DNA of 64,000 nt from Actinopolyspora biskrensis (GTDB lineage: Bacteria; Actinomycetota; Actinomycetes; Mycobacteriales; Pseudonocardiaceae): the NCBI RefSeq assembly GCF_013408175.1, contig NZ_JACBYW010000001.1:310001-374000 (forward strand), given 5' to 3'. The position numbers and the translations under genes are program-made. The notes beneath the pieces are model-generated. The model had not been told where the DNA came from and searched no databases. It saw only the letters and a list, made by a program, of their open reading frames with translations. Position 1 is the first letter of the stretch. Every line of letters begins with the position of its first letter. This document shows, one piece after another, positions 25,205 through 35,616 of the stretch.

Positions 25205-25921
25205 CTAAGCGAGATAGGCCTTGCGCACGGGGCGGGTGGGTCCACTGGTGAAGTACTCGGGTGTTCTCGCCTTGACCGCGTCGATGTCGTGGAAGACCTC
25301 GCGGAGGTGCGAGCGGAGGGCTTCTTCCGCGGCTTCCGGGGGGCCGGACTCGAGCTGGTCGACGATCTCCGTGTGTTGCTCCAGCATCCGCTCCAGGGTG
25401 TCGGCGATGGGCAGGCACGCCCGACGAGCTCGGTCGAGGTGCGCCTTGGCCGAGCTGACCACGTCCCAGGCGGCCTCGTGGTTGGCCAGCCGCAGCATCG
25501 TGGCGTGCAGCGTCTCGTCCAGCTCGAAGAACCGGTCGACGTCCCGCGCTTTCACGGCCAGCTGCTGTTGTTCGAGGTTCTCCCGGAGCTTTTTCAACTG
25601 GGGCCGTTCGATGGTCAGGGTCAGTTCGCGGAAGGAGGCCAGTTCCAGCGCTTCGCGGATGAACTGCGCGTCGGCCACCGCTGTCGGGTCGATCCGGGAG
25701 ACGAAGGTGCCCACTTGGGGGTAGATCTCCACCAGGCCGTCGTTGGAGAGCAGGATGAGCGCCTCGCGGACGGGTGTGCGGCTCACGCTCAGTTCGGCGG
25801 CCAGCTCGTTCTCCGCGATACCACTTCCCGGTTCGAGAGTCAGATCGAGGATGCGGCGCCGCACCTCGGCTGTGGCCAGGTCGCGTGAGGTCCTCGTGCT
25901 GTTGTTTCGTGAGCGCATCAC
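25205..25921 (-). CDS. GntR-family (FadR/FCD subfamily) regulator
   Basis: 238-residue repressor-type regulator, read away from the sugar-acid operon. The winged helix-turn-helix (about 18-75: ELAAELSVSRTPVREALILLSNDGLVEI) is followed by an all-helical FCD ligand domain whose metal-binding residues appear in RFFELDETLHATM (Asp, His), EQHTEIV and SHLREV (His). FCD regulators usually sense carboxylated sugars or organic acids, matching the divergent operon. The GTG at 25921 (ATG at 25918 follows) lies seven bases after AGGA. A consensus operator lies in the divergent promoter region. Confidence 0.9.
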   Translation of the reverse strand: MMRSRNNSTRTSRDLATAEVRRRILDLTLEPGSGIAENELAAELSVSRTPVREALILLSNDGLVEIYPQVGTFVSRIDPTAVADAQFIREALELASFRELTLTIERPQLKKLRENLEQQQLAVKARDVDRFFELDETLHATMLRLANHEAAWDVVSSAKAHLDRARRACLPIADTLERMLEQHTEIVDQLESGPPEAAEEALRSHLREVFHDIDAVKARTPEYFTSGPTRPVRKAYLA

Positions 25922-25933
25922 CGGTGCATCCTA

Positions 25934-25962
25934 TTGACGAAACGCTAGTGTGGTTCTACTAA
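25934..25962 (+). promoter_or_regulatory. Sigma70-type promoter of the sugar-acid operon
   Basis: TTGACG (25934-25939) and TACTAA (25957-25962) are 17 bases apart in an unusually AT-rich stretch for this genome. Transcription would start about 28 bases before the transporter ATG. Confidence 0.55.
25951..25961. promoter_or_regulatory. GntR/FadR-type operator
   Basis: TGGTTCTACTA fits the FadR-subfamily consensus TNGTNNNACNA at every fixed position. It overlaps the -10 region of the operon promoter, so bound regulator would block transcription, and it lies 30 bases from the regulator gene, allowing autoregulation. Confidence 0.6.
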
Positions 25963-25996
25963 TATACTAGCATATTGCCGCCTCGCCGGAGTTCGA

Positions 25997-27397
25997 ATGA
26001 CTACCGAGACATCCACGTCGGCACGGGATCCCTACGTGCTGACCTCCGATGAAGTGAAGGAACCACCAGCGGGCTGGCGTGGATCGTTGCGCTTCCTGGG
26101 TCCGGGGCTGATCCTGAGCGCATCCATCGTCGGCTCTGGGGAGTTGATCGCCACGACGGCGCTGGGCGCCGAGGCCGGCTTCGCGCTGCTCTGGTTGGTC
26201 GTGTTCAGCACGCTGGTCAAGGTGGCGGTGCAGGTCGAGCTCGGGCGCTGGTCGATCGTGACCGGGCAGACCGCTCTGGAGGGTTACAACAAGGTGCCGC
26301 CGCGTTTCCGCGGTCTCGGCTGGATCAGCCTGCTGTGGATCCTGATGGCGGTCGTCAAGGTGCTTCAGGTCGGTGGTGTCGTCGGCGGCCTGGCGGCGGC
26401 CCTGAGCATCCTGATGCCCGTCGGTTCCGGCCCGTTGGAGTTCACCTCGCTGGCGATCTGGACCGCCGTGGTGGTCGTCGCCGCGATCGTGTCGCTGTAC
26501 TCCAACAAGTACACCCTCATCGAGCGCGGCGCCGTCGGACTGACGGTGATCTTCGTGCTGATCACCTGCGTGATCGCCTTCGGGCTGCCGTTCACCGAGG
26601 TCGGCTACGGGCTCGCGGAAGTGCGCACCGGCCTGAGCTTCACGATCCCCGGTGGTGCGGTCGGCGCGGCGATCGCCATGTTCGGGCTCACCGGCGTCAC
26701 CTCGGACGAGATCACCTACTACACCTACTGGTGCATCGAGAAGGGCTACGCCCGCTGGGTGGGTCCGAACGACGGCACTCCCGAGTGGCGCGAGCGTGCC
26801 AGGGGCTGGATCAGGGTGATGTACCGGGACGCCTTGTTGTCCTGGGTCGTCTACACGGTCGGCACGATGGCGTTCTTCGTCATGGGCGCGGCCGTGCTGC
26901 ACCCGGCCGGGCTGGTGCCCGAGGGCAACGACATGATCACCACGCTGTCCCGCACCTACACCGAGACGCTGGGCGAGTGGGCGAGCACGGCCTACCTGCT
27001 GGGCGCGGTGGCGGTGCTCGGCTCCACGCTGTGGGCGGCCCTTCCGAGCTGGACCCGTGTCGCCGCGAACGCGGTCTCCGTCTGCGGTGGGTTCGACTGG
27101 CGCGACACCGCACGCCGCACGTGGTGGATGCGCGCGTTCACAGTCGTGTTCCCGATCACCTGGGGAGCCGCTTACCTGTACTTCAGCTCCCCGGTGTTCA
27201 TGGTCCAGACCGGCGGTTTCATCGGAGGGGTCTTCCTGATCGCGGTGACCGTGGCCACCTGGTACCTGCGCAGGAACGAGGTGGACGAGGGCCTGCGGGG
27301 TGGCAGGTGGTTCTCGGTGGCTCTGACGGTCAGCAGCCTGCTCATCGTCGGGCTCGGCGTCTACACGGCGATCAGCGTTTTCGGGGGTGGGAACTGA
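25997..27397 (+). CDS. Nramp-fold transporter without metal-site motifs
   Basis: 466-residue membrane protein with about 11-12 helices, related to the Nramp divalent-metal transporters. The helix that carries the metal-binding DPGN in true Nramp proteins reads SIVGSGEL here (about 43-50), and the helix with the second site (MPH) reads [12 protein letters not shown] (about 230-241). Both metal motifs are therefore gone. First gene of an operon for sugar-acid breakdown, with its stop overlapping the next start (TGATG), so it is the obvious candidate uptake system for that sugar acid. That role is inference; no such substrate is established for the fold, to my knowledge. Confidence 0.8.
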
Positions 27398-28416
27398 TGA
27401 ATCGGACGATGAGCGCCGCGGTGCTGCACGGTGCCGGGGACCTGCGGGTCGAGCAGCGCGCCGTGCCGCGGGCATCCGCGGGCCAGGCGCTGCTCGCGGT
27501 CGGTCACGTGGGGTTGTGCGGTTCCGACGTGCACTACTACCGGGACGGCCGCAACGGGAACAACGAGCTCCGCGCGCCCGCGGTGCTCGGCCACGAGATC
27601 GGCGGGAGGGTCGTCGAGGTCGGCCCGGAGGTCCCGGACGAGCTCGTGGGCGGGACGGTGGTGGTCGAACCGGCGGTGCCCTGCCGTCACTGCTCGTTGT
27701 GCACGGCGGGTCGCTACAACCTCTGCGGGAACGGCCACTGCCTCGGATCGCCGCCCAGCGACGGCGGGCTGGCCGAGTACCTCGCCGTGGACGCCGCCCA
27801 GCTGCACCGGGCGCCCGAGGGGCTGCCCGCGGCGGCAGTCCCCTCGCTCGAACCGCTCGCCGTCGCGGTGCACGCGCTGCGCCGCACCGGCTTCGCCCCC
27901 GGACAGTCCGTGCTGGTGACCGGGGCCGGACCGGTCGGCCTGCTGGTGGCCCAGGTCGCGCTCGCCTGGGGCGCCCGCCGGGTGACGATATCCGATGTGG
28001 ACGAATCGCGTCTGGAGGTCGCCCGAGCGGTCGGCGTCGAGCGCGCCTTCCGCCCGGACGAGCTCGACGGGCTCCGCGTGGAACGCACGCTGGAGTGCTC
28101 CGGGGCGGTGTCCGCTCTGGACACCGGTGTGGCGGCGACCGTCCCCGGAGGTCGGCTGGGGCTGGTCGGCACCGTTCCCGACGAGGCGGTGCGGGCGCGC
28201 CTGGCTCCGGTGCAGCGCTACGAGATCGACCTGGTGGGCGCGTTCCGGTACGCGGGCGGCTTCCCCGAGGCGATCCGGCTGGTCGAGGACGGAGCCGTGG
28301 ACCTCGTCGCGCTCGGCACGGCGAACTACCCCCTGGAACGCGCTGCCGAGGCCCTCGGCCGGGCGAGCGGCGGTACCGGGGTCAAAACGACCGTCGAATG
28401 CACCACGGAAAGGTGA
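27397..28416 (+). CDS. Zinc-dependent aldonate/polyol dehydrogenase (L-idonate or L-gulonate 5-dehydrogenase-like)
   Basis: 339-residue medium-chain dehydrogenase. Catalytic zinc ligands Cys41 ([10 protein letters not shown]), His66 and Glu67 (GHEIGG) and the additional Glu152 (SLEPLAVA) are present, as is the structural zinc set Cys96, Cys99, Cys102 and Cys110. The dinucleotide loop GAGPVG (176-181) is followed by an acidic residue at about 200, which favours NAD. Relatives oxidise L-idonate, sorbitol or L-gulonate. Its neighbours handle D-fructuronate and D-mannonate, so oxidation of L-gulonate at C5 to D-fructuronate is the most coherent role. Its start overlaps the transporter stop. Confidence 0.82.
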
Positions 28417-28418
28417 GC

Positions 28419-29627
28419 ATGAAGATCGTGGACGCGAAGGTGATCGTCACATCACCGGGACGCAACTTCGTCACCGTCAAGATCACCACGGAGGACGGTG
28501 TCACCGGGGTCGGCGACGCCACGCTCAACGGGCGCGAGATGGCCGTCGTCGGTTATCTCACCGAGCACGTCTGCCCGCTGCTGATCGGTCGCGAGGCGAG
28601 CCGCATCGAGGACACCTGGCAGTACCTCTACAAGGGGGCCTACTGGCGGCGCGGGCCGGTCACGATGACCGCGATCGCGGGTGTCGACACCGCGCTGTGG
28701 GACATCAAGGGCAAGGTGGCGGGACTGCCCGTCTACCAGCTGCTCGGCGGGCGCAGCCGCGACGGGGTGATGGTCTACGGCCACGCCCAGGGCTCCACGA
28801 TCGAGGAGACCGTGGACGAGGTCGGACGTTACCTCGAACGCGGGTACCGGGCGGTGCGCGCGCAGACCGCGATACCGGGGCTGTCCGGCACCTACGGCAT
28901 CGGTTCGGACGGCGAGCGCTACGAACCGGCGTCCTCCGGGCTGCCGGAGGAGACGCCGTGGTCGACGCCCGCCTACCTCAACCACGTGCCCGAGCTGTTC
29001 GACCGGGTGCGTCGCGAGCACGGCTACGGGTTCCACCTGCTGCACGACGCCCACCACCGGATGAGCCCGAACGAGGCGGCGGGGCTCGCCAAGGCCCTGG
29101 AGCCCTTCCGGCTGTTCTGGCTGGAGGACCCGACACCGGCGGAGGACCAGACGGCGTTCCGCCGGATCCGCGAGCACAGCACCACGCCGCTGGCGACCGG
29201 TGAGATCTTCAACTCCATCCACGACTGCGATCGGCTGATCACCGAGCGGCTGATCGACTACATCCGCACCAGCGTCACGCACGCGGGCGGGATCACGCAC
29301 CTGCGCCGGATCCTGTCGCTGGCCGAGCTGCACGGCGTGCGTTCCGGCTCGCACGGCGCCACCGACCTGTCGCCGGTGTGCATGGCCGCGGCGCTGCACG
29401 TCGACACCGCGATCCCGAACTTCGGCGTTCAGGAGTACATGCCGCACGAGGAGCGGACGAACGAGGTCTTCCCGCACGGCTATCACTTCGCCGACGGGCA
29501 CCTGTACCCGAGCGAGGATCCGGGGCTCGGCGTCGACATCGACGAGAACGCCGCCGAGTCCCACCCGTACGAGCCCGCCTACCTGCCCGTGGCGCGGCTG
29601 CACGACGGATCGATGCACGATTGGTGA
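28419..29627 (+). CDS. manD: D-mannonate dehydratase (enolase superfamily, ManD)
   Basis: Converts D-mannonate to 2-keto-3-deoxygluconate. In the 402 residues the known catalytic positions of characterised ManD enzymes coincide even in numbering: Arg147 and Tyr159 on the mobile loop, metal ligands Asp210, Glu236 (WLEDP) and Glu262 (ATGEIF), and His212. The HGATD loop near 311-315 has Ala where low-activity family members have Pro, which from memory is the mark of efficient mannonate dehydratases. The ATG lies three bases after the dehydrogenase stop, with AAAGGTGAG as ribosome binding site. Gene symbol follows the enzyme family name; E. coli uses unrelated uxuA. Confidence 0.92.
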
Positions 29628-29632
29628 CCACA

Positions 29633-30586
29633 ATGGACTACGACGTCATCGTCCTCGGCGAGGTGCTGCTCGAGGTCGGCACGTCCGCGGTGTTCCGGGA
29701 CGGCGTCGAGGCACGGCTGGGCTGCTCCGGCGACGCGCTCAACGCGGCCGCGGCCGCGGCGGCGGCCGGGGCGCGTGTCGGTCTGCTGACCAGGATCGGC
29801 GACGACGAGGTCGGCGAGGGGATCGTCGCGCGTATCGAGGAGCTCGGCGTGGACACCGGACTGGTCGACAGGACCGGGGGCCACAACGGCTGCTACCTGA
29901 TGCGGGCCGACCCCGGGGGAACGCGGGGGTTCGCCTACATGCGGCGCGGGAGCGCCGCCAGCGGGTTGAGCCCGGACGACGTTCGGCGGGCGCGGCTCGG
30001 CGAACGCGCGCGCTGCGTGCTCACCAGCGGTATCACCGCCGCGCTGTCGGACACCGCCCGCGCGGCGGTGCTGGCCGCCAAGGAGGCGGCGAACGAGTTC
30101 GTCTACGACCCGAACCACCGGCCCGCGCTGGTCGGTTCGGACGAGGCGGCCGCCACGCTGCGCGCCGTGTCGGAGGGGGCGAAGCTGGTCACCCCGTCGC
30201 ATCCGGGGGAGACCTCCGCGCTGCTCGGGTGCGGCACCTCGGAGGAGGCGGCACGCGAGCTCCGTGCGCTCGGCACGGAGGCGGTGGCCGTCACCTGCGG
30301 TGGCGACGGGGTGCTGGTCGAGGCGGAATCGCGGGACGGTTCGTGGCGTCTTCCTCCCGTGCCCGCGAGGAGCGTGGTGGATCAGACGGGTGCCGGGGAC
30401 GTCTTCGCCGGTACCGTGACCGCTCGGCTGGCCCTCGGGGACGAGCTCCCCGTGGCGGTCGGGCTGGCCGCGGCGGCCGCGTCGCTGTCGGTCGGGGGAC
30501 GTGGTGGTACCGGCGGGATCCCGGCGATCGGGAGCACCCGCGAGCACTTGGCGACGAGTCCCGGGAGCGTGTCATGCGCCGGTTGA
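29633..30586 (+). CDS. PfkB-family sugar kinase, probable 2-keto-3-deoxygluconate kinase
   Basis: 317-residue ribokinase-fold enzyme. GDALNAAAAAAAAGARVGLLTRIGDD is the N-terminal PfkB signature, in two parts, and DQTGAGDVFAGTV is the C-terminal one with the catalytic Asp and anion hole. Between a mannonate dehydratase and a mannonate oxidoreductase the expected substrate is KDG, giving KDG 6-phosphate. I use ATG 29633; a GTG at 29624 overlapping the ManD stop is an alternative that would add three residues. The 3' end overlaps the next gene by 13 bases. Confidence 0.87.
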   Translation: MDYDVIVLGEVLLEVGTSAVFRDGVEARLGCSGDALNAAAAAAAAGARVGLLTRIGDDEVGEGIVARIEELGVDTGLVDRTGGHNGCYLMRADPGGTRGFAYMRRGSAASGLSPDDVRRARLGERARCVLTSGITAALSDTARAAVLAAKEAANEFVYDPNHRPALVGSDEAAATLRAVSEGAKLVTPSHPGETSALLGCGTSEEAARELRALGTEAVAVTCGGDGVLVEAESRDGSWRLPPVPARSVVDQTGAGDVFAGTVTARLALGDELPVAVGLAAAAASLSVGGRGGTGGIPAIGSTREHLATSPGSVSCAG

Positions 30587-32049
30587 ACCTGGAGAACCTC
30601 ACCGACGTTTCCCGGCGCTCCGGGGACGGGATCGCCCCCGAGGAGCTCACCGTCGGAATCGTCCACTTCGGAGCGGGCAACTTCCACCGGGCGCACCAGG
30701 CCGTCTGCACCGAGGACGCGATGCTGGCCACCGGTGAGACCGGGTGGGCGATCAGCGCGGTCACCCAGCGCGGTCCCGCCGTGCGCGACCGGCTGCGCGG
30801 CCAGGACTGTCTTTACACAGTGGTCACCAGGGACGAGTCGGGGACGGCGTACCGGGTGGTGCGTTCCGTCCGCGAGGTGCTGGACGGTCCGTCGGAGACG
30901 GAGGCCGTGCTGGAGCGCATCGCCGACCCCTCGGTGACGGTCGTGACGCTCACGGTCACCGAGCACGCCTACCGGCTCCTGCCGGGAACGCGGCGGTTGG
31001 ACACCGCCGATCCCGGCGTGCTGGCCGATGCCGCCGGGCAGGGGCCGTCCACGGTGGTGGGGCGGCTCGTGGCCGGGATCCGTGCCCGCCGCGCGGCGGG
31101 AGCGGGTCCGCTGGCCGTGGTCAGCTGCGACAACCTCGACGAGAACGGTCCGGTGCTGCGTGCGGCGGTGCGTGATTTCTGCGCGCTGCTGCCGGACGGC
31201 GCCGAGCTGGCCGAGTGGATCGAGCGGCACGTCACCTTTCCCGCGACGATGGTCGACCGCATCGTGCCCGCCACGACGGAGGAGGACCTCGCCGGGGTGG
31301 AGGCCGAGCTGGGTGCGCGCGACGAGGCGGCCGTGGTCGCCGAGCCGTTCATCCAGTGGGTGATCGAGGACGACTTCCCGGCGGCCCGGCCCGCCTGGGA
31401 GAAAGCCGGTGCCCTGCTGGTCGACGACGTCCGGCCGTACGAGATGACCAAGCTGCGCACGCTCAACGCGTGTCACTCGCTGCTGGCCTACCTGGGCGCG
31501 CTGGCCGGTGTCGGGACCATCGCCGAGACGATGTCGGTCGCGGAGTTCGAGGCGGTCGCCAGGAGGCTGGCCGACAACGAGGTCGCCCCCACATTGCCCG
31601 GGATCGCCGGTTTCGAGCACGGCGGCTACGTGGACACGGTGCTGCGCCGCTTCCGGAACCCGGCGCTGGCGCACACCACCCAGCAGGTCGCCTCGGACGG
31701 GTCGCTCAAGATCGGGCCGCGGCTGCTCGGAACCGTCGGCGACGCGCTGCGGGGGTCGGTCGTTCCGAGCGCGGCGGCGCTGGCGATCGCGGCCTGGTTG
31801 CGCTGCGTGCTCGTGCGGCGGACCGACGGCGGGGAGCCGTTGGAGGTGCGTGAGCCCGCCGACGAGCGGATCCGGGAGGGCGCCGGTGGCGGCACGGGCA
31901 GGGGGGTCGTGCGGCCCGCGCTGGCCGCGGCCGGGGTCGACGAGGCGCTGTTGGACGACCGGCGCTTCCTGTCGCTGGTCGAGCACCACTACGACGAGCT
32001 GGCCAGGAGCGGGGCGCGGGAGACCGCGCGGAGCGTCGCCGCCGAGTAG
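30574..32049 (+). CDS. uxuB: Mannitol-dehydrogenase family: D-mannonate oxidoreductase (fructuronate reductase)
   Basis: 491-residue long-chain dehydrogenase. The N-terminal NAD-binding part starts VGIVHFGAGNFHRAHQAV; the catalytic segment YEMTKLRTLNACHSLLAYLG holds the family Lys-Asn-His set. Members reduce D-fructuronate to D-mannonate or oxidise mannitol/arabinitol. Context with ManD and a KDG kinase argues for the fructuronate/mannonate activity. Its ATG lies inside the kinase gene. It is the last gene of the operon; no aldolase for KDG 6-phosphate is encoded in this window. Confidence 0.87.
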   Translation: MRRLNLENLTDVSRRSGDGIAPEELTVGIVHFGAGNFHRAHQAVCTEDAMLATGETGWAISAVTQRGPAVRDRLRGQDCLYTVVTRDESGTAYRVVRSVREVLDGPSETEAVLERIADPSVTVVTLTVTEHAYRLLPGTRRLDTADPGVLADAAGQGPSTVVGRLVAGIRARRAAGAGPLAVVSCDNLDENGPVLRAAVRDFCALLPDGAELAEWIERHVTFPATMVDRIVPATTEEDLAGVEAELGARDEAAVVAEPFIQWVIEDDFPAARPAWEKAGALLVDDVRPYEMTKLRTLNACHSLLAYLGALAGVGTIAETMSVAEFEAVARRLADNEVAPTLPGIAGFEHGGYVDTVLRRFRNPALAHTTQQVASDGSLKIGPRLLGTVGDALRGSVVPSAAALAIAAWLRCVLVRRTDGGEPLEVREPADERIREGAGGGTGRGVVRPALAAAGVDEALLDDRRFLSLVEHHYDELARSGARETARSVAAE

Positions 32050-33633: not shown

Positions 33634-33676
33634 GGATCCGGTTTCGTTCGGGTGGACACGTGGCTGGGGTGCAGTG

Positions 33677-34062
33677 GTGAGTGGTTGGTCGCGGTCGTTG
33701 GTGACCGCTGGTGTCGGTGCGGCTTTGCTGGGGGCTGTCGGGTGCAGTCCCGGTGATTCCTCGGAGGGTGCGACGGAGGAGACCTCGGCTGCCAAGCCTT
33801 CGGGTGAGGTGTTGGCCGGGGTGGATCCGTGCGGCATCTTGTCGGATGCTGAATTGAAATCCTTTGGACTGAAGACGGAGGGCAAGGTTACGAACAGCCC
33901 CCCGTGGGCACCGGGATGTCAGTACCAGGGCGATCCTGTTGTTGCGAGTATCCGCAAGGAGACGCGTGACACGGTGGACTCTGCAGCGAAGAAGGAGACG
34001 TGGGCCGAGTTCGAGCGCACCGAGGTGAATGGTCGTGCCGGAGCGACTGCGGTGACCGAGGG
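33677..34062 (+). repeat. Direct repeat unit 1 (5' two thirds of DUF3558 gene)
   Basis: Matches 35071-35456 at a constant offset of 1394 bases with only about ten differences; 33790-33988 is an identical run of 199 bases. After about 34062 the two genes diverge sharply. The pattern suggests recent duplication or gene conversion. Confidence 0.85.
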
Positions 34063-34222
34063 GGCTACCCAGGCGGGGACCTGCGACGCGATGTTCGACG
34101 CCGGTCAGGGCATGATCCAGGTACGTGCCCATGACGTCGCTCGTTCGGGCAGCCGCGACGAGTGCGCCAAGGCGCTGGAGACCGCCGAGAAGGTCGAGCC
34201 GAACGTTCCGGGACAGGCGTGA
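33677..34222 (+). CDS. DUF3558 lipoprotein (copy 1)
   Basis: 181-residue secreted lipoprotein. A signal peptide with hydrophobic stretch LVTAGVGAALLGAVG ends at Cys23, the expected lipidated residue, followed by a Ser/Glu/Thr-rich linker and a DUF3558 domain with a conserved Cys pair (VDPCGIL; PGCQYQG). The GTG at 33677 is chosen by alignment with its near-identical partner at 35071. DUF3558 lipoproteins are common in mycolata and pseudonocardia and often lie near type VII secretion genes, but their role is unknown. Confidence 0.85.
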   Translation: MSGWSRSLVTAGVGAALLGAVGCSPGDSSEGATEETSAAKPSGEVLAGVDPCGILSDAELKSFGLKTEGKVTNSPPWAPGCQYQGDPVVASIRKETRDTVDSAAKKETWAEFERTEVNGRAGATAVTEGATQAGTCDAMFDAGQGMIQVRAHDVARSGSRDECAKALETAEKVEPNVPGQA

Positions 34223-34540: not shown

Positions 34541-34651
34541 GATCTCCGTCACCGGAGTGGTTTTTGCCGGTTTGGCACACAGTGCCGTGGGGCGGCGCTA
34601 CAGTGTTCGTGCCGGTGGGCGGTCGTGACGAGCGCGTTGTGAGGAGTGGCT

Positions 34652-35074
34652 GTGTCCGTTGTCAAGGGGGAGGGCTCCGGGTTCTCGGGGGCCAGCGCGG
34701 CGCTGGGGGCGATCAGCGAGGAGAACTCCTGGATCGAGCAGCAGATCTCGGGCGGCGGGCTGAGCATGGAGCCCAGTGCCGCCGACGAAGCAGCCAAGGT
34801 GTACGAGGAGAAGGCTGAGAAGGTAGCCTTGCTTGCCGATAATGCCGCTCGTCTGCAACAAGTTCCTGGGTTGGGGGATTACCCCTCGGGGCGACAGTTG
34901 GCAAATAAGTTCTCGCAGAAAGCCACTAACGGTTCTACCGGGGCAGCGGACCTACTGAGACAGTTCCGGGACGAGTTGCTGCGTAAGGCGGACCTGTTCC
35001 GCCAAGCCAAGGAGAAGTACGTTGCCACCGACGAGCAGATCAGCAGTGACCTGAACAGGGGGAGTCAGCAGTGA
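34652..35074 (+). CDS. WXG100-like type VII secretion substrate candidate
   Basis: 140 residues, predicted almost wholly helical, without signal peptide. A Gly-rich start (KGEGSGFSGASAALGAIS) precedes two long amphipathic helices rich in Ala, Glu, Lys and Gln. No strict WxG is visible. It fits the size and helix pattern of small ESX-linked proteins, and its stop overlaps the start of a DUF3558 lipoprotein gene (GTGA), so the two are co-translated. GAGGAG precedes GTG 34652. Assignment rests mostly on context. Confidence 0.6.
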   Translation: MSVVKGEGSGFSGASAALGAISEENSWIEQQISGGGLSMEPSAADEAAKVYEEKAEKVALLADNAARLQQVPGLGDYPSGRQLANKFSQKATNGSTGAADLLRQFRDELLRKADLFRQAKEKYVATDEQISSDLNRGSQQ

Positions 35075-35456
35075 GCAGGTGGTCGCGGTCGTTGGTGGCC
35101 GTTGGTGTCGGTGCGGCTTTGCTGGGGGCTGTCGGGTGTAGTCCCGGTGATTCCTCGGAGGGTGCGACGGAGGAGACTTCGGGTGCCAAGCCTTCGGGTG
35201 AGGTGTTGGCCGGGGTGGATCCGTGCGGCATCTTGTCGGATGCTGAATTGAAATCCTTTGGACTGAAGACGGAGGGCAAGGTTACGAACAGCCCCCCGTG
35301 GGCACCGGGATGTCAGTACCAGGGCGATCCTGTTGTTGCGAGTATCCGCAAGGAGACGCGTGACACGGTGGACTCTGCAGCGGAGAAGGAGACGTGGGCC
35401 GAGTTCGAGCGCACCGAGGTGAATGGTCGTGCCGGAGCGACTGCGGTGACCGGGGG
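35071..35456 (+). repeat. Direct repeat unit 2 (5' two thirds of DUF3558 gene)
   Basis: Second copy of the repeat at 33677-34062; see that entry for the identity pattern. The two units are in direct orientation 1.39 kb apart, so recombination between them would delete the second DUF397 and the helical protein. Confidence 0.85.
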
Positions 35457-35616
35457 GGCGACTCAAGCCGGGATCTGCAGTGCTTTGTTCGACGCCGGAC
35501 AAGGCATGATCCAGATTCAAGCTCAAGAATTCAGTCGTTCTGACGATCTCGACGAGTGCGCCAAGGCGTTGGAGATCGCCGAGAAGGTCGAGCCGAACGT
35601 TCCGGAACCGGCGTGA
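35071..35616 (+). CDS. DUF3558 lipoprotein (copy 2)
   Basis: 181 residues, almost identical to copy 1 through residue 128, then different (IQIQAQEFSRSDDLDECAKALE against the other's VRAHDVARSGSRDE region). The lipobox Cys is at 23 and the DUF3558 cysteines are kept. It is fused in translation to the upstream helical protein by a GTGA overlap, and its stop lies nine bases before the large PPE-like gene, so helical protein, lipoprotein, PPE-like protein and EspG seem to form one unit. Confidence 0.87.
   Translation: MSRWSRSLVAVGVGAALLGAVGCSPGDSSEGATEETSGAKPSGEVLAGVDPCGILSDAELKSFGLKTEGKVTNSPPWAPGCQYQGDPVVASIRKETRDTVDSAAEKETWAEFERTEVNGRAGATAVTGGATQAGICSALFDAGQGMIQIQAQEFSRSDDLDECAKALEIAEKVEPNVPEPA

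Follow-up and report, generated by a model that had tools for sequence, protein, structure and literature searches.

A GSGE-type Nramp-related protein encoded with mannonate dehydratase in Actinopolyspora biskrensis: a candidate sugar-acid importer

The operon and its Nramp-related protein

The window, by which we mean the whole 64,000-nucleotide stretch of Actinopolyspora biskrensis DNA that was analysed, carries a compact cluster of genes on the forward strand. At its head lies a gene (25997..27397) for a 466-residue Nramp-related protein of the GSGE type, a proposed sugar-acid importer. It is followed by genes for an MDR zinc dehydrogenase that is L-idonate-5-dehydrogenase/RspB-like and is proposed to be a hexonate 5-dehydrogenase (27397..28416; PF08240/PF00107), the D-mannonate dehydratase ManD of the enolase superfamily (28419..29627), a PfkB-family sugar kinase, proposed to be a 2-keto-3-deoxygluconate (KDG) kinase (29633..30586; PF00294, 128.3 bits), and a UxuB-like oxidoreductase of the mannitol-dehydrogenase (MtlDH) family, proposed to interconvert D-mannonate and fructuronate (30574..32049; PF01232/PF08125). 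An initial annotation of this DNA had described the genes as translationally coupled, and the junctions agree with it: the TGA of the Nramp gene (27395-27397) overlaps the ATG of the dehydrogenase gene (27397-27399), the gaps before and after the ManD gene are 2 nt and 5 nt, and the kinase and oxidoreductase genes overlap by 13 nt. The mannonate dehydratase that it named is likewise sound (NF043051, 699.4 bits against an equivalog cut-off of 550), whereas its "KDG-type kinase" and "mannonate oxidoreductase" hold at the family level only and miss the equivalog cut-offs (126.9 against 400 bits with NF040938; 305.8 against 603 with the fructuronate reductase model NF011611). The MDR dehydrogenase is also placed at the family level only, its best NCBIfam match, NF007375, reaching 191.9 bits against a cut-off of 469. 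In a Pfam profile search none of the other operon genes matched a transporter family, as the annotation had stated, and no pxp (5-oxoprolinase) genes were found in the operon.

Divergent from the operon is a gene for a GntR/FCD transcriptional regulator on the reverse strand (25205..25921; PF07729 FCD, 76.2 bits; PF00392 GntR, 66.3 bits), probably an acid-responsive repressor. The regulator is kept at the same place in the related loci L004-L006, with 66-68% identity, and the regulator/Nramp intergenic regions of the window and of these three loci share a conserved block, aligned by eye and without statistics, in which a near-palindrome around CTACTAATATACTAGCAT (25955..25974) is a candidate operator lying over the promoter. 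The whole arrangement, a divergent GntR gene followed by Nramp, dehydrogenase, ManD, PfkB and MtlDH-family genes, is repeated in Actinophytocola, Halosaccharopolyspora and Prauserella, where the Nramp-related proteins are about 80% identical to that of the window; PfkB was not found in the Halosaccharopolyspora version of the operon.

The protein is related to the Nramps, scoring 68.2 bits with PF01566 (gathering cut-off 29.8) and 101.9 bits with NF037982, the "Nramp family divalent metal transporter" model (cut-off 50), and its best Foldseek and VIA matches are Nramps. It is far under the cut-offs of the curated MntH subfamily models, however (46 against 430 bits and 37.3 against 272.5 bits). 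On alignment, the segment SIVGSGEL of TM1 (residues 43-50; 26123..26146, forward strand) replaces the DPGN segment, so that D34-P-G-N37 of E. coli MntH corresponds to G46-S-G-E49; a segment of TM6 (residues 230-241; 26684..26719, forward strand) replaces the MPH segment, M209-P-H211 corresponding to T235-S-D237; and the proton-pathway acids of TM3, D109 and E112, are V125 and V128. None of the four hallmarks of the canonical Nramps (SLC11/MntH), namely DPGN, MPH, the TM3 Asp/Glu and the MntH subfamily scores, is thus found in this protein, and the earlier description of an Nramp-like protein without both metal-binding motifs stands, with GSGE in place of DPGN and TSD in place of MPH. The predicted structure has low pLDDT values (44-53) at TM1 and TM6.

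Simple decay of the motif was set aside as an explanation: the altered TM1 motif is conserved and not decaying, because G46, S47, G48 and E49, like D237 and E238, are invariant among 13 homologues, chosen by similarity and with identities down to 42%. Within the clade of the window protein (24 rows), E49 and E238 are present in 24/24 and D237 in 23/24. More broadly, none of the 56 rows of the four GSGE-type groups retains the Asp and Met ligands of the transition-metal site; the presence of E49 in all 56 of these rows is not independent evidence, as the groups were named by this motif, and on the side of the tree that the GSGE types occupy, 56 of the 59 rows have E at this position, the exceptions being L034, L035 and L189.

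To place the protein, we collected relatives from 13 loci of one pattern-based scan of GTDB contigs, from 12 plasmid records and from 8 genomes among 396 sampled in the phylum, the A. biskrensis genome being one of the 8. For a control set we ran NF037982 against 246 genomes of the phylum and obtained matches in 120, and neighbourhoods were fetched from among the matches listed. The 146 proteins of at least 330 residues were sorted by their TM1/TM6 type; 140 fall into eight groups and 6 into none. Genes were called with a simple ORF picker, which makes errors in high-GC DNA. In a quick maximum-likelihood tree (109 rows, LG+G4, SH-aLRT support only, long branches flagged; nine loci omitted because they were copies or had been misread, DPGN reduced to 14 rows and DAGG to 6), the GSGE types (TT, WP, EW and GLGE, together with L034, L035 and L189) are split with a support of 99 from the other side, which holds the DPGN, GPGT, DAGG and GAGD types as well as a PxpT-like protein of A. 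biskrensis itself. The window clade (TT) forms one group (support 98), as does DPGN (support 100), and by the SH-aLRT values of this tree the window protein lies outside the DPGN clade. The GSGE branch occurs in Actinomycetota, Pseudomonadota, Bacteroidota, Deinococcota and Halobacteria.

Neighbourhoods of GSGE-type and canonical Nramps

In the initial annotation a tally of the homologues' operon neighbours had been proposed as a check, and the result clearly favours its reading. Using E. coli K-12 enzymes as references, we looked for marker genes within 6 kb of the Nramps after dereplication at 85%, with at least 5 kb of flank and with the window excluded, which left 103 of the 140 Nramps of the eight groups. 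A gene of hydroxy- or sugar-acid catabolism was found near 21/41 GSGE-type Nramps, in comparison with 0/28 of the DPGN type (p 1.5e-6) and 0/62 of all non-GSGE groups (p 6.6e-11), p-values that are descriptive, the 18-marker acid panel having been picked after the neighbours had been seen. The MntR regulator shows the reverse distribution (15/28 DPGN, 0/41 GSGE; p 6.6e-8), whereas control genes do not differ (4/41 GSGE, 2/28 DPGN). Because the GSGE types form a single branch, their contrast with the canonical Nramps amounts to one evolutionary event.

By type, the marker-positive Nramps are 9/17 TT (3 of the 9 being versions of the window's operon from other genera), 8/16 WP, 4/6 EW and 0/2 GLGE, with the L026 neighbourhood counted twice, for it has two GSGE Nramps. 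With references derived from the loci themselves, and with the reference loci and their near copies left out, the corresponding figures are 3/18 TT, 12/20 WP, 1/7 EW and 0/5 GLGE, against 0/33 DPGN, 0/11 GPGT, 0/14 DAGG and 0/18 GAGD. A link to acid catabolism in all Nramp-related groups is not borne out by the E. coli panel, which gave 0/9 for GPGT, 0/9 for DAGG and 0/16 for GAGD. Six E. coli proteins were kept out of the acid panel as too broad or unspecific (YgbI, YgbJ, GarR, RspB, UxuB and AceA); of these, YgbJ, GarR, RspB and UxuB each match near 1/28 DPGN loci. The E-value threshold was looser for MntR and FeoA (1e-5) than for the acid markers (1e-12), and the same in all groups. E. coli FeoA matched near none of the Nramps in this test; the 7 Pfam FeoA matches among neighbours may come from the C-terminal domain of the iron-dependent repressors.

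A Pfam scan of the two neighbours on either side, being independent of the choice of markers, agrees with the panel. It covered 54 GSGE-type and 32 DPGN Nramps (75% dereplication; eight copy loci and L037 left out). Among the top 25 families of each pool, the 114 neighbours of the DPGN type are headed by Fe_dep_repress (8 matches), one GSGE pool of 94 proteins by LUD (7), malate synthase (5) and Fer4_8 (5), and another of 75 by GntR/FCD (5).

The acids concerned would seem to be of several kinds. Hexonate-type neighbourhoods are those of the window, L026 and L032 (annotated plasmid loci, the former with UxaA, MR/MLE and Lut genes and the latter with UxuA), L043 and L044. A second kind, with DUF1537, PdxA2 or LarA, comprises the annotated plasmid loci L029 and L030 (DUF1537 kinase, PdxA, HpcH and 2-hydroxyacid dehydrogenase), L078, L079, L084, L087 and L089-L091; L007 was grouped with these, its PdxA2 recognised by BLAST and its kinase by eye. 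Lactate/glycolate genes (LutABC, GlcDEF or malate synthase) lie at L086, L138, L178 and L182, and ureide genes at L040 and L042 (OHCU decarboxylase by Pfam, uricase and HIU hydrolase by eye), the latter with an adjoining xanthine/uracil permease gene. The GLGE-type Nramps of L092-L097 lie, by eye, beside 2-oxoacid:ferredoxin oxidoreductase-like and alanine-glyoxylate aminotransferase-like genes. In a Mesobacillus plasmid (L036:6454-10269) a GAGD-type Nramp gene comes after CoA-transferase A/B and thiolase genes, possibly a ketoacid link outside the GSGE branch.

Of the 41 GSGE-type Nramps, 20 have no acid marker at all, and these include members of the window's own clade. No marker was found within the clade at L008-L016 (Roseomonas-type, Inquilinus, Spirosoma), L025/L027, L028, L031, L039 and L041, the genera of the markerless members being Inquilinus, Roseomonas/Pseudoroseomonas, Skermanella, Spirosoma and Microscilla. 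The surroundings of these genes are varied: the Microscilla locus has GH43 and SusD/TonB genes nearby, L039 and L041 are by eye ArgG/ArsM-type loci, L028 of Roseomonas adjoins a 2,3-dihydroxybenzoate siderophore cluster, and in the Skermanella plasmids L025 and L027 an SLC13 permease gene comes directly after the Nramp-related gene.

What takes the place of the Nramp in other ManD loci was examined separately. ManD is encoded in 47 of 296 genomes of the class, and of 20 loci fetched 19 were read (L247 was left out). An Nramp was recognised in 0/19 of them. In eight loci (L231, L235, L236, L239, L242, L245, L248 and L249) no membrane protein with at least 5 predicted helices was recognised within 6 kb of ManD, and the other 11 loci encode ABC permeases or MFS proteins. 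L240 repeats the window's order (divergent GntR, carrier, dehydrogenase, ManD, PfkB), L243 has MtlDH, ManD and carrier genes with a divergent GntR, and L246 contains dehydrogenase, carrier, ManD and GntR genes; their regulators are orthologues of that of the window and 46-52% identical to it. In place of the window's Nramp, the carriers of these three loci are MFS proteins whose best match is the "metabolite/H+ symporter" model TIGR00883 (373-380 bits, cut-off 443), along with the shikimate transporter, and L232-L234 (ManD with an MtlDH-family gene) have ABC permeases alongside; L241 encodes an ABC-3 permease of the metal type at some distance. In the window, L005 and L006, the Nramp is the only protein with at least 5 predicted helices within 6 kb of ManD, and L004 has in addition an amino-acid permease, beyond the operon. 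The Nramp-related protein thus occupies the slot in which related operons keep an acid-type carrier.

Substrate and competing readings

Taken together, these observations make it likely that the protein is a LeuT-fold secondary carrier in which the metal site has been exchanged for a carboxylate site and which imports a hexonate, L-gulonate or D-mannonate being the likeliest; a keto-hexonate such as fructuronate is a possible substrate. A hexonate is favoured because ManD is present, the genome has a KDPG aldolase gene outside the operon (PF01081, 2 matches, the best of 208.3 bits) and UxaC is absent (no PF02614 match in the A. biskrensis genome, while 7 of 14 control genomes were positive). 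Breakdown of glucuronate by way of UxaC is ruled out by this absence, and the aldolase and the lack of UxaC fit a route from a hexonate dehydrogenase through mannonate to KDG, not glucuronate isomerisation. L-gulonate is broken down through the ManD route in other organisms, and the pairing of a ManD-type enzyme with an MDR dehydrogenase recalls rspA-rspB of E. coli. In the scheme that we infer, which extends to transport itself, its direction, the substrate, the coupling ion and the ligand of the regulator, the acid would enter through the carrier, probably accompanied by a proton or cation, L-gulonate (or L-idonate) would be oxidised to a keto-acid by the MDR dehydrogenase, and the UxuB-like enzyme would reduce fructuronate to D-mannonate; ManD would then dehydrate this to KDG, the PfkB kinase would convert KDG to KDPG, and the aldolase encoded elsewhere would split it. 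The GntR/FCD protein would repress the operon until an acid binds.

Our confidence goes no further than this because of the markerless relatives and because YcsG/MntG and MumT, whose genes lie in catabolic operons, have been published as Mn2+ importers. The initial annotation's reading of the protein as an organic-acid carrier is supported by the recurrent acid-catabolism neighbours and extends further than stated there, with these two precedents as a limit. For the GSGE branch in general, the neighbourhoods suggest that it probably carries organic acids instead of metals. That every part of the branch consists of carboxylate carriers (for hexonates, tetronates, glycolate/lactate and ureide-derived acids), with transition-metal transport a property of other branches and not of the fold, is a generalisation that we rate as about as likely as not.

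The foremost alternative, which we nevertheless think unlikely, is metal import: the metal-dependent enzymes of the operon would receive their Mn2+, Mg2+ or other cation through this protein. ManD, UxaA, DUF1537 kinases and PdxA-type enzymes do use divalent metals, a point in favour of such a supply. LarA, moreover, uses nickel (PMC7583248), and there is precedent for metal supply in the reports on MumT, which is found with urea carboxylase, and on YcsG/MntG in the 5-oxoprolinase operon (PMC5050338, PMC10448178). Yet the metal ligands and the TM3 acids have been lost, MntR is near none of the 41 GSGE-type Nramps, and what the linked enzymes (LutABC, malate synthase, 2-hydroxyacid dehydrogenase, OHCU decarboxylase) have in common is organic-acid substrates, not a single metal; in the related ManD loci, too, the same slot is held by MFS metabolite/H+ symporters and ABC permeases, and the genome encodes a ZnuA-type ABC binding protein. 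The narrower proposal that the window protein (P0001) is the general Mn importer of the genome was set aside, although the evidence against it, this ZnuA-type protein and two other PF01566 proteins, neither of them of the DPGN type, is not decisive.

It is very improbable, in our estimation, that the substrate is a metal-acid chelate, or that acid and divalent cation are co-transported, so that acid and metal phenotypes would both be real. Such a carrier would bring the acid phenotype of PxpT into line with the Mn phenotypes of YcsG/MntG and MumT, and the acidic residues E49, E238 and D237 so well kept in the window clade are in its favour, but the Asp and Met metal ligands are gone from every GSGE-type row. 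Just as little weight is given to a carrier of some other organic acid, be it a pathway intermediate or a hydroxy acid shorter than the hexonates, or to an exporter: relatives do adjoin tetronate, glycolate/lactate and ureide genes, and specificity probably varies within the branch, but hexonate-type partner enzymes accompany the protein in four closely related genera.

If hexonate import by the GSGE-type protein is correct, many genes annotated as metal importers through NF037982 would be organic-acid carriers, the missing-transporter problem of acid catabolic operons would be solved, and the GSGE-type Nramp-related groups would have a role. The Nramp family would gain a substrate class beyond the single case of 5-oxoproline, and the pair of site types would offer a natural comparison for the switching of a LeuT-fold site between a bare cation and an organic anion. 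Annotated GSGE-type proteins of the plasmid records seen are named divalent metal transporters. The NF037982 model itself gives its highest scores, among the matches listed, to the GSGE_WP group, reaching 520 bits; the metal-transporter function in its name is unsupported by the neighbourhoods, and the name probably misleads annotation.

Relation to characterised Nramp-family proteins

The nearest functional parallel is PxpT of Corynebacterium glutamicum (cg1142; TCDB 2.A.55), reported to be required for growth on 5-oxoproline, with metal transport not excluded (PMC13274462). PxpT and YcsG of B. subtilis resemble the window protein in belonging to the Nramp family in TCDB and in being encoded in an operon for acid catabolism, next to the gene of a GntR-type regulator; they differ from it in that the window operon has no 5-oxoprolinase and YcsG has published Mn2+ evidence as well. 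YcsG is a reported Mn2+ importer whose overexpression raised cell Mn and whose promoter is bound by MntR (PMC10448178), and its deletion is also reported to stop the use of 5-oxoproline, possibly through a polar effect (PMC10448178, PMC13274462). For MumT, the other reported Mn2+ importer, the published Mn phenotypes are lower cell Mn by ICP-MS and impaired growth on urea (PMC5050338). From E. coli MntH and DraNramp the window protein is set apart by the lack of DPGN, MPH and the TM3 D/E, and the GSGE type from the canonical Nramps generally by the lack of an MntR neighbourhood. EleNRMT, an Nramp-related Mg2+ transporter outside the canonical clade (PMC12873925), is non-canonical like the window protein and matches it in Foldseek with an E-value of 1.2e-8. 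In its available part, the same 2026 preprint reports that Nramp-related proteins are without DPGN/MPH and the proton-path residues, a pattern that the window protein shares, and regards all but two groups as entirely uncharacterized. In that part of the text no organic substrate is mentioned for such groups, the word "organic" having 0 occurrences (PMC12873925).

The initial annotation had also proposed a new substrate class for the fold. This was partly anticipated by PxpT, with which an organic acid has already been proposed once as an Nramp-family substrate; neither hexonates nor the GSGE branch as a whole came up among the papers listed in an open-licence library, and no sugar-acid Nramp was among them (most subscription journals lie outside this scope).

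A. biskrensis has its own relative of these proteins. One of the two further PF01566 proteins of the genome (G000:C5:73667-74647; L046, L206) has AIGPGF in TM1, is PxpT/YcsG-like and adjoins a PxpA/LamB_YcsF gene at 72578-73291; the tree places it across the main split from the window protein, albeit as a long branch. The other (G000:C6:430431-431540; L045) is of the GAGD type and lies, by eye, between glmU-like and ribosomal protein L25-like genes. A GPGT-type Nramp-related gene in another genome (L202, G027:C1 about 238300-239800) also directly adjoins a PxpA gene, and a second Nramp type may thus serve 5-oxoproline. Finally, downstream of the operon the window carries two lipoprotein-like ORFs (33674-34222 and 35071-35616), flanking a small ORF (34646-35074); their proteins are 89% identical and their DNA is 92% identical over 554 nt, and they are probably a recent tandem duplication.
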